Positions 20,455 to 23,241 of a stretch of 35,613 nt of DNA are shown piece by piece (position 1 is the stretch's first letter; the number at the start of each line of letters is the position of its first letter). The position numbers were made by a program, and so were the translations under genes. The DNA comes from Synechococcales cyanobacterium M55_K2018_004 (GTDB taxonomy: Bacteria; Cyanobacteriota; Cyanobacteriia; Elainellales; Elainellaceae). Location of the stretch: NCBI GenBank assembly GCA_015295905.1, contig DVEB01000351.1, positions 1 to 35,613 on the forward strand. Direction: 5' to 3'. Under the pieces are notes generated by a model. The model was not told where the DNA came from. It made no database searches and saw only the letters and a program-made list of their open reading frames with translations.

Positions 20455-21144
20455 ATGAGTTCACCGATCAAGGCTGTTCAGTCTCCCTACTATGGGGACG
20501 CGTCGTTCCGCACTCCCCCACCTGACCTCCCCTCACTGCTGCTCAAAGAGCGGATTATTTATTTGGGGTTGCCCCTCGTTTCTTCGGATGACTTCAAGCG
20601 GCAGATGGGTGTCGATGTCACCAAGCTCATCATTGCCCAGTTGCTCTATCTGCAATTTGACGATCCCGAAAAGCCCATCTTCTTCTACATCAACTCCACT
20701 GGCACCTCCTGGTACACTGGCGATGCGATCGGCTACGAGACCGAAGCCTTCGCAATTTGCGACACCATGAGCTACATCAAGCCCCCTGTCCACACCATCT
20801 GCATTGGTCAAGCAATGGGGACAGCGGCGATGATTCTGTCGGCAGGAACGAAAGGTTTCCGGGCTAGCCTGCCTCACGCGACTATTGTGCTCAATCAACC
20901 CCGCACTGGCATGGGTCAGGCTCAGGCAACAGACATCCAGATTCGGGCCAGAGAAGTGTTGGCAAACAAGCAGGCCATGCTTAGTATTCTGTCGAAGAAT
21001 ACAGGGCAAACACCTGAAAAGATCGCCAAAGATACCGATCGAATGTTCTACATGACTCCCCAGGAAGCTAAGGAGTATGGCCTGATTGACCGGGTACTGG
21101 AAAGCACCAAGCAACTACCCAAGCAGATTCCAGCTTTGATTTAG
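20455..21144 (+). CDS. clpR: ClpR, catalytically inactive ClpP-family subunit
   Basis: ClpR is a ClpP paralogue that joins the mixed ClpP/R core of cyanobacteria and chloroplasts without cutting peptides itself. The N-terminus (SPIKAVQSPYYGDASFRTPP) and the overall 229 residues match the cyanobacterial form I recall. The nucleophile serine region is CIGQAMGTAAM instead of [11 protein letters not shown], so Ser is replaced by Gly. The catalytic His position reads LPHATIVLNQP instead of [11 protein letters not shown], so His is replaced by Asn. It heads a run of four genes with 69, 57 and 39 bp gaps, probably one operon. There is no clear Shine-Dalgarno, only AGG 13 bases upstream. Confidence 0.92.
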   Translation: MSSPIKAVQSPYYGDASFRTPPPDLPSLLLKERIIYLGLPLVSSDDFKRQMGVDVTKLIIAQLLYLQFDDPEKPIFFYINSTGTSWYTGDAIGYETEAFAICDTMSYIKPPVHTICIGQAMGTAAMILSAGTKGFRASLPHATIVLNQPRTGMGQAQATDIQIRAREVLANKQAMLSILSKNTGQTPEKIAKDTDRMFYMTPQEAKEYGLIDRVLESTKQLPKQIPALI

Positions 21145-21213
21145 TTGATCTAGTTGATCTAGTTCAGGGCGATCGCCCCCTACTCTATCCATCCCCTTAT
21201 CTCCCTCATCTCC

Positions 21214-21876
21214 ATGCCTGTTGACGAGATCCTCCGCGTCCCGTACAACCTTCCTGGCAGCCAATACTGGCAGTGGATCAACATCTACACCCGCATGAGC
21301 CAGGAGCGAATTCTGTTCCTTAACCAACCCCTAACGGATGGTGTGGCAAATTCGCTGATATCCGCAATGTTGTATTTAGACTCTCAAGACCAGAACAAGC
21401 CCATCTATCTCTATATCAATTCCTTGGGCGACCCAGTCGCAGCGGGTATGGGCAACATAACTGCTGGCATGATCTCCATTACGGCAGGGTTGGCTATCTA
21501 CGACACCATGCAGCACATCAAGTCGGAAGTCGTTACCATCTGTATGGGGATGGCGATGGGGATGGCCGCTGTCCTACTTTCCTCGGGTGCTAAAGGCAAG
21601 CGCAGCAGCCTGCCCCACGCCATGATTGCTCTCGCCCATCCCCAGATGGGAACCCAGGGGCAAGCCTCTGACATTCTGGTGAACGCTGATGAAGTCCTTG
21701 AGAAAGAAGCGCTGATCCGTCAAATCTTGGCTGAAAACACCGGCCAGCCCATCGAAAAGATTGCCAAGGACATGGATCGCACCTTCTACCTAACGCCTCA
21801 GCAAGCAAAAGAATATGGCTTGATCGATCGCGTTCTGGAAAGCACCAAAGGTGCCCCCGCCGTTGCCGGTCACTAA
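21214..21876 (+). CDS. Second ClpR-like inactive ClpP-family protein with inserted loop
   Basis: This is a ClpP-family protein of 220 residues. Its N-terminus ([20 protein letters not shown]) resembles the intact ClpP encoded next to it. Its C-terminus ([13 protein letters not shown]) is identical to that part of ClpR. The serine site reads [11 protein letters not shown], so Ser is lost, and the catalytic His position is Ala in [12 protein letters not shown], with a His one residue later. After the second strand the usual [16 protein letters not shown] becomes [10 protein letters not shown], a roughly 14-residue insertion repeating TAGM/TAGL, then AIYDTM. The insertion lies where substrates bind in ClpP. 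The gene is extra relative to the usual clpR-clpP pair. The leader before the ATG is pyrimidine-rich without a Shine-Dalgarno. Confidence 0.85.
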
Positions 21877-21933
21877 AGATCACTAACTTAGATCACTAAT
21901 CTATCCATTTCCCTCACCTTCTCCTCTAGACCT

Positions 21934-22545
21934 ATGCCAATTGGAATCCCCAGTGTCCCCTATCGCCTGCCGGGCAGCACCTACGAGCAGTGGATTAGCA
22001 TCTACGAGCGGCTGTTCCGAGAGCGTATTATCTTCCTTGCAGAAGAAGTTGATGATGGCATTGCCAATGCGATCGTCGCCTATATGCTCTATCTGGACTC
22101 CGACGACCAAAACAAGCCAATCTACCTTTATATCAACTCACCTGGTGGTTCGGTCACTGCTGGCATGGCCATTTACGACACCATGCAGCACATCAAGTCA
22201 GAAGTGGTCACCATCTGTGTTGGCCTTGCGGCTTCGATGGGGGCTTTTTTGCTGGCAGCGGGTACTAAAGGTAAGCGGCTAGCTCTGCCCCACTCCCGTA
22301 TCATGATCCACCAGCCGTTGGGGGGCACGGGTCGTCGGCAGGCTACAGATATTGAAATCGAAGCGAAGCAGATCCTGCGGGTACGGCGTGAACTGAACGA
22401 GCTGATGGCGTTCCATACGGGCAAGTCCATCGAGCAAATAGAGAAAGACACTGACCGTGACTACTTTATGTCTGCGGAAGAGGCAAAGGAGTATGGCCTA
22501 ATTGACCGGGTGATTGAGGATCAGGCCGCCGCCCAACACGCCTAA
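21934..22545 (+). CDS. clpP: ATP-dependent Clp protease proteolytic subunit (active type)
   Basis: This 203-residue serine protease subunit has the complete ClpP triad environment: the oxyanion segment [16 protein letters not shown], the nucleophile in [11 protein letters not shown], the histidine in [11 protein letters not shown] and the aspartate near EKDTDRDYF. It degrades unfolded or tagged proteins together with ClpC or ClpX. In model cyanobacteria the copy beside clpR is called ClpP3; that numbering is likely here but not proven. It follows the inactive paralogue by 57 bp and precedes a J-domain gene by 39 bp. As with the preceding gene, the leader before ATG is pyrimidine-rich and lacks a Shine-Dalgarno. 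Confidence 0.94.
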
Positions 22546-22584: not shown

Positions 22585-23241
22585 ATGGAGCTTGCAGCCT
22601 GCTATCGGCTATTGGGTTTACAGAGAGGAGCCTCCTACGAGGAAATTAAAACCTCTTACCGTCGGCTAGCGCGAAAGTATCACCCCGACGTCAACCCTGA
22701 TAATCGGCAGCAGGCTCAAGAGAAATTCATTCAAATCACAGCCGCCTACGAGTTGCTAATGGCTGCCAGTGAGGATGCGCCGCGGCGATCGCCCCAACCG
22801 CGCCAACCGCGATCGCCCCGCCCCTCTCAGGCCACTCCTCCGACCAGCCCTCAGGCCACCTCCGTCGTCCCATCTGCCACACCGCCTGCTGCGACGCCTC
22901 GCAAAAAGCCCACCATTCGCCGCGACCCTGAGACTCTGCCAACGGATTACCAGTTCAAGGTGGATGCCTACGATCAGACACAGCGACTTTTGCAGGAACG
23001 GCGTTTTCCCAGAGCGATCGCCCTCCTAGAGGGACTGCAACAGCGCCTGCCCAACGACCGAGAAGTGAGACAGTGGTTGGCGATCGCCTACTACAAATGG
23101 GGCAACTACCTAATTGCCACCCACGAAACCGATAAGGCCAGACTCTATTTGAACAAAGCCCTGCGGACGGCTCCCGACTACAAAGAACTCTGGTATGAAG
23201 TCGATCGTGCCTTACAGAAGATCGATGCCGAGTTTTTGTAA
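22585..23241 (+). CDS. J-domain protein with TPR-like C-terminus
   Basis: Residues 4-60 form a J domain with the HPD motif (RKYHPDVNP) that stimulates Hsp70/DnaK ATPase activity. A Pro/Ser/Ala-rich linker of about 50 residues follows, then a helical C-terminus (residues about 125-218) with [20 protein letters not shown] and [17 protein letters not shown], which resembles TPR units. There are no Gly/Phe or zinc-finger regions, so it is not a classical DnaJ. The tight spacing after clpP suggests co-transcription and a link between Hsp70 delivery and the Clp core. This is an inference from position. There is no signal peptide or membrane helix. Confidence 0.88.

Follow-up and report, generated by a model that had tools for sequence, protein, structure and literature searches.

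The window, by which we mean the whole analysed stretch of 35,613 nucleotides from Synechococcales cyanobacterium M55_K2018_004, carries a tandem trio of ClpP-family genes on the + strand. These are clpR, a middle gene (MID) and clpP3, all with intact open reading frames (ORFs) and separated by spacers of 69 bases (clpR to MID) and 57 bases (MID to clpP3). A reading made from the sequence only had described two inactive paralogues followed by one active subunit, and the three ORFs and the residues read at their catalytic positions bear this out:

20455..21144, + strand: clpR, 229 aa; inactive ClpP paralogue with G122, N147 and M197 at the Ser, His and Asp positions
21214..21876, + strand: MID (middle gene), 220 aa; inactive, with a ClpP3-like N half and a ClpR-like C half; G116, A141 and T190
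21934..22545, + strand: clpP3, 203 aa; active subunit with S101, H126 and D176

The CLP_protease profile is matched by clpR, MID and clpP3 alike. In NCBIfam, clpR is identified as NF009204 (431.8 bits, cut-off 263) and clpP3 scores 310.3 bits, above the cut-off of the general ClpP subfamily (249). Outside the trio, two full ClpP genes are present in the source genome, along with two partial matches of low score. The gene 3′ of clpP3 (22585–23241) is J-domain-like at its beginning (motif HPDVNPDN); it is a possible co-chaperone gene adjoining the protease operon.

Catalytic residues, insertion and predicted fold

The catalytic columns were located by E. coli ClpP motifs that we assume to mark them, which gives the following features of MID, together with an insertion upstream of them:

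21436..21477, + strand: 14-residue insertion, MID residues 75–88, resembling two extra 7-residue units of type xxAGMxx
21559..21561, + strand: codon at the catalytic Ser position, Gly
21634..21636, + strand: codon at the catalytic His position, Ala
21781..21783, + strand: codon at the catalytic Asp position, Thr

Gly at the Ser position and Ala at the His position had been reported in the sequence-only reading and are confirmed as G116 and A141; the Asp position is T190, and therefore all three catalytic residues are absent. Judged by the Ser-His-Asp triad of an active ClpP peptidase (S14), MID is not such an enzyme. Of 70 MID sequences, 67 lack Ser and 69 lack His; Asp is missing from all 69 that have a residue at its position, and a complete triad occurs in 0 of 70 (catalytic-residue counts exclude ORF pieces of <150 residues). 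ClpP3 keeps the whole triad in 85 of 85 rows; ClpR has Gly at the Ser position in 88 of 88 and retains His in 6 of 88. In DIV, a divergent middle gene, Ser is retained in 4 of 6 sequences, His and Asp in none of the 6. Two single cases depart from these patterns: one MID (locus L012, genome G303) has Ser and His but Met at the Asp position, so that its site is partly intact although the family is otherwise dead, and one clpR (locus L208, genome G057) lacks Ser, keeps His (MHQP) and has a shorter insertion.

The insertion of MID sits before a helix that is also found in ClpP3. Across the 65 of 70 MIDs in which it has equal length, its self-identity at an offset of 7 residues is 0.281, the next best offset giving 0.128, and only 1 of 2,000 column shuffles reached 0.281.

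MID passes PF00574 with 213.2 bits against a cut-off of 20.2, and 35 of 35 rows of its alignment match the profile. An AlphaFold model, for which the alignment comprised 34 of 80 named loci and the window protein, predicts a ClpP fold (mean pLDDT 76.7, pTM 0.76) with a long helix at the handle position (151–176); residues 71–81 form a loop and the next helix begins at 82. The best PDB match of the model is ClpP 6hwn_B (TMt 0.90). Orthology of MID to a plastid ClpR was considered and rejected, as no plastid chain is singled out among the best 60 of 110 structure matches; in these, 7eko_B, which we take to be from Chlamydomonas, scores 187.7 bits against the MID profile, below many bacterial ClpP.

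Relation to cyanobacterial ClpR and ClpP3

MID reaches the cut-off of none of the NCBIfam families that it matches, with 209.7 bits against 263 for ClpR and 226.7 against 249 for the general subfamily. Eight other MIDs pass no cut-off among the matches listed at E ≤ 1e-55, and their NF009204 scores are at most 221.6 bits. MID shares the missing triad with ClpR and stays below the score that defines ClpR. Cyanobacterial ClpR (NF009204 / PRK12552) resembles MID in lacking the triad, in its linkage to clpP3 and in the C half, which in MID groups there, whereas MID has a ClpP3-like N half and a different insertion at the same place. The motif of the ClpR-type N half (RTPPPDLPSLLL...) is absent from MID. 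Cyanobacterial ClpP3 resembles MID in the N half, including the VPYxxPG...QW motif and the first helices, whereas the catalytic triad is missing from MID and its C half is ClpR-like.

Distribution of the middle gene

ClpP-family matches were found in 388 of 388 class genomes searched. An orthologue of MID is present, by score, in 70 of these 388 cyanobacterial genomes, the window's included, and in 11 of 43 families as given by assigned codes. The 70 matches have E below 1e-83 and 62–78% identity (100% for the window itself); a score gap follows, beneath which the next matches are DIV or ClpP3. DIV was found in 16 of 388 genomes with a typed consensus query, again by score, and in G233 later, about 17 in total; the weakest match is G227 with 63% identity, and DIV was checked at the locus in 10 of these genomes. 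The MID and DIV lists have no genome in common. The rarity of the three-gene arrangement that had been implied at the outset is thus not upheld: a widespread orthologue had been named as what would speak against any peculiarity, and this is what the occurrence of MID in 70 of 388 genomes amounts to.

The order clpR-MID-clpP3 is clean in 66 of the 70 MID loci and is found with broken ORFs in 2 more; of the remaining two, one (G005) has clpP3 elsewhere and the other shows no clpR in the stretch examined. Six DIV loci inspected have the same order, clpR-DIV-clpP3. Among 80 named loci, 64 show the trio order, and in 6 more MID is fragmented or stands at a contig end; 9 have clpR and clpP3 only and 1 has a clpR-like match only. 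Named carriers include Arthrospira, Microcoleus, Dolichospermum, Nostoc, Chroococcus, Chamaesiphon and Leptolyngbya. In L078, L079, L081, L083, L084, L090 and G233, DIV stands at the same place; it differs in its insertions and in a changed His motif, and its C half is nearer to ClpR than that of MID is. Extra ClpP-like stretches were seen in two genomes, one a gene (G135, C1:5214030-5214542, 232.8 bits) besides P1, P2, R, MID and P3, the other weak and in a relative (G024, C1:4047589-4047990, 89.5 bits). Viral spread of MID was rejected, no relative being found in viral contigs with the patterns tried.

A second dead subunit thus stands beside ClpR in about a fifth of the sampled genomes, by score. 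A 2021 review of cyanobacterial and plastid Clp proteases states, for a limited species set, that there is one ClpR per cyanobacterium (PMC7966870), which contrasts with MID carriers such as Arthrospira, Microcoleus, Dolichospermum and Leptolyngbya. No title or opening of an abstract found in the open-access literature names a second cyanobacterial ClpR.

Affinities of the two halves

The sequence-only reading had noted that the N-terminus of MID resembles the active subunit and its C-terminus ClpR. With the break set at ClpP3 residue 88, the 30 informative columns in the N half of MID favour ClpP3, with 16.2 against 3.4 for ClpR; the 27 in the C half favour ClpR, with 12.8 against 5.4 for ClpP3. 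The best breakpoint lies at ClpP3 residue 92 for MID and 89 for DIV, which delimits a putative crossover zone:

21523..21534, + strand: inferred crossover zone, about MID residues 104–107, corresponding to ClpP3 residues 89–92; from the best breakpoints

None of 20,000 column shuffles reached the observed contrast between the halves, with or without the columns near the active site. The contrast is therefore real and non-random along the gene; column permutation establishes a difference between the halves and not its cause.

We computed a 138-row tree with FastTree and used smaller, careful sets for trees of the halves and for AU tests. The N half of MID and DIV joins ClpP3 (71/89; 92/89 with basal rows) and falls inside crown ClpP3 (87/84), outside the clade that unites the N halves of all ClpR (100/100, starred). 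The C half joins ClpR (100/99, starred) when columns within 3 of each catalytic residue are removed, and the AU test rejects its placement with ClpP3 (p 0.00015; p 0.0197 in a smaller set). These last results bear on convergence, in which MID would be a plain ClpP3 duplicate that lost catalysis and drifted towards ClpR in its C half. Both MID and ClpR are without the triad, so similar constraints would have been relaxed in them; the signal, however, persists without the near-catalytic columns and includes sites that lie away from the catalytic centre, among them the last 30 residues, and we regard convergence as very improbable.

The best C-half tree places MID and DIV with crown ClpR and leaves the deep-branching ClpR of family f14 outside (100/99, starred). 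The corresponding arrangement of the N half, with crown ClpR and with f14 ClpR outside, is rejected (p 0.0017); because this arrangement also splits crown from f14 ClpR, the test counters the arrangement seen in the C half and not all placements near ClpR. Several other arrangements are not rejected: (i) in the N half, ClpP3 together with MID outside (p 0.27) and, in the small set, MID, DIV and ClpR together (p 0.54); (ii) in the C half, crown ClpR, MID and DIV without the G057 ClpR (p 0.30), MID and DIV together (p 0.25) and MID alone (p 0.29). The N half makes DIV the sister of MID (85/90), whereas in the C half DIV goes with ClpR (97/83, starred).

A history without recombination would make MID an early side branch of ClpR that kept a ClpP3-like N half, while the N half of ClpR itself changed fast. 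A single history with MID and DIV sister to all ClpR is not rejected in either half (p 0.38 for the N half and 0.29 for the C half), nor is a C half that unites all ClpR and excludes MID (p 0.19), and the N half of ClpR does sit on a long branch (1.85). Against it stand the best C-half trees, which exclude f14 ClpR from the group of MID, DIV and crown ClpR, and the N half of MID and DIV inside crown ClpP3. In addition, the N half of f14 ClpR is already of ClpR type, yet this ClpR falls outside the group that includes MID in the best C-half tree, a conflict that favours recombination as far as these trees can tell, and both the position and the polarity of MID match one crossover. We consider the recombination-free account somewhat unlikely.

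Proposed origin by unequal crossover

Recombination is our favoured, though not proven, source of the contrast between the halves. As to the origin by duplication and recombination put forward in the sequence-only reading, the halves group with different genes in the best trees and the AU test rejects two swapped placements, but a tree free of recombination is not rejected. In our proposal, an unequal crossover within a clpR-clpP3 tandem would have fused a 5′ portion of clpP3 with a 3′ portion of clpR. A single such event between sister copies would account for hybrid polarity and middle position together, and MID does lie between its presumed parents, with an N half like that of the downstream gene. 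The hybrid would then have lost its remaining catalytic residues and gained the 14-residue insertion resembling copies of a 7-residue unit, and selection would have retained it. A test for duplicated spacer DNA flanking MID gave p ≤ 0.05 in 5 of 42 loci, and 3 of 200 shuffles for the window itself, and shows no clear trace of a crossover.

The anti-Lepore haemoglobin genes are hybrids of this kind, formed by unequal crossover and lying between both intact parents. The proposal for MID likewise has a hybrid flanked by two intact parents; whereas anti-Lepore genes are human alleles, the event behind MID would be old and its product has been kept across many species.

Selection on the middle gene

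The median dN/dS is 0.127 for MID, 0.024 for ClpR and 0.040 for ClpP3 (23 close, non-independent pairs), which indicates that MID is maintained by selection. Across 64 loci, in comparisons that exclude ORFs of 180 residues or less, the mean pairwise difference is 0.343 for MID, 0.184 for ClpR and 0.183 for ClpP3, which puts MID at about 1.9 times the divergence of either neighbour. Its divergence proceeds in step with that of ClpR and ClpP3 (Spearman 0.60 and 0.59; 0 of 500 permutations, 64 loci).

Apparent exchange of the operon as a module

We compared the presence of a middle gene on trees of the operon's own genes and of RecJ as a species marker, phosphoglucomutase having been dropped because its matches were weak and confined to 7 of 30 genomes. 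From 128 state-scored genomes, 88 had RecJ of >300 and ClpR and ClpP3 of >150 residues: 38 with MID, 10 with DIV and 40 without, the non-carrier loci being a non-random draw from genomes with listed ClpP3 coordinates. On the RecJ tree, presence requires 19 changes, of which starred branches force at least 13, and 24 when three states are scored; on FastTree trees of ClpR and ClpP3 from the same genomes it requires 1 change each, and 2 for three states. An earlier set of 83 loci needed 1 change on ClpR and 3 on ClpP3. Carriers form one clade in a careful rooted ClpR tree of 48 rows (89/88). In the careful ClpP3 tree, also of 48 rows, a clade of 15 non-carriers lies among carriers, and the AU test gives p 0.084 for carriers as one clade. 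Few gains or losses are thus needed on the operon's own trees (1–3 changes) and many on RecJ.

The contrast recurs within genus g97, which comprises 3 carriers and 4 non-carriers. Between carriers and non-carriers, identity is 88–96% in RecJ, 66–68% in ClpR and 83–84% in ClpP3; within either group, ClpR is 96–99% identical. Each of the seven genomes has one operon, and in carrier/non-carrier pairs the flanks match on both sides in one pair and on the downstream side in the other. RecJ adjoins the operon in the window and lies on a different contig in, for example, G173.

The many presence changes on the RecJ tree against 1–3 on the clpR and clpP3 trees, and the contrast within g97, are what is new here, and from them it follows that the operon has apparently been swapped as a module: clpR-MID-clpP3 would have been exchanged between cyanobacteria against the two-gene version clpR-clpP3. 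Swapping within a genus is unexpected for a protease that is called essential in Synechococcus (PMC4673316).

The same patchy spread could stem from old paralogous operons, of two and three genes, sorted by loss and not by transfer. Trees cannot date the events, and RecJ is one marker; in g97, however, all seven genomes have a single operon, which lies at one shared site in both pairs that were compared, and carriers and non-carriers are 88–96% identical in RecJ. We judge such sorting to be unlikely. That co-adaptation of ClpR or ClpP3 to MID produced the tree pattern was rejected: no column is fixed differently (≥80% each) in carriers and non-carriers; the whole-gene divergence in g97 also counters it.

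A proposed third subunit of the ClpP3/R core

The co-inheritance seen in these trees shows that ClpR, MID and ClpP3 belong together; a shared ring does not follow from it. A setting for a third subunit is given by the core of Synechococcus elongatus, which is a mixed ring of active and inactive subunits, R-P3-R-P3-R-P3-R (3 ClpP3 and 4 ClpR), with ClpC as its partner, and in which restoring the catalytic site of ClpR does not make the core faster (PMC4673316). Its subunits correspond to the outer two genes of the operon described here; it has two subunit types only, whereas this operon has a third. The plastid ClpPR core likewise unites several inactive paralogues in one protease system, with four ClpR types (PMC7966870).

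From the sequences we infer that MID assembles jointly with ClpP3 and ClpR. Our main reading, to which we assign a probability of about 0.5, is that MID serves the ClpC-dependent ClpP3/R core as a second pseudo-protease subunit, born as a hybrid, exchanged with its operon as a module and kept by selection. MID would occupy ring positions beside ClpP3 and ClpR as a structural subunit and would work through assembly and chaperone docking, without catalysis. Its N-terminus and first helices, of ClpP3 type, would lie at the ring surface and form the contact with one neighbour; its dead chamber side and its handle, of ClpR type, would serve the contact between rings. Such a natural mix of active and inactive subunit parts lets one ask which half sets the position in the ring, chaperone docking and ring-ring contact.

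MID might instead be made and remain outside the ClpP3/R core, as a ring of its own, a free decoy or an assembly factor. That it evolves faster than its neighbours would fit such a role; its operon position, constant in nearly all loci checked, its tight co-inheritance with its own ClpR and ClpP3 lineages and its predicted ClpP fold with a handle helix do not, and we find a role outside the core distinctly unlikely.

Within the preferred reading of MID as a core subunit, a more specific placement can be drawn. A seven-membered ring that alternates ClpR and ClpP3 has one unavoidable ClpR-ClpR contact, and MID might be the subunit at this seam, in a ring R-P3-R-P3-R-P3-MID. It would show a ClpP3 face on one side and a ClpR face on the other, turning the odd contact into two mixed contacts. 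That the N half bears one lateral face is our assumption from the ClpP pocket residues (E. coli L48, F49 and F82), and we offer this placement as a long shot. If it is true, the share of active sites, expected in the sequence-only reading to be exceptionally low should all three proteins join one core, would remain 3/7; it would likewise be unchanged in general if MID substitutes for ClpR and not for ClpP3.
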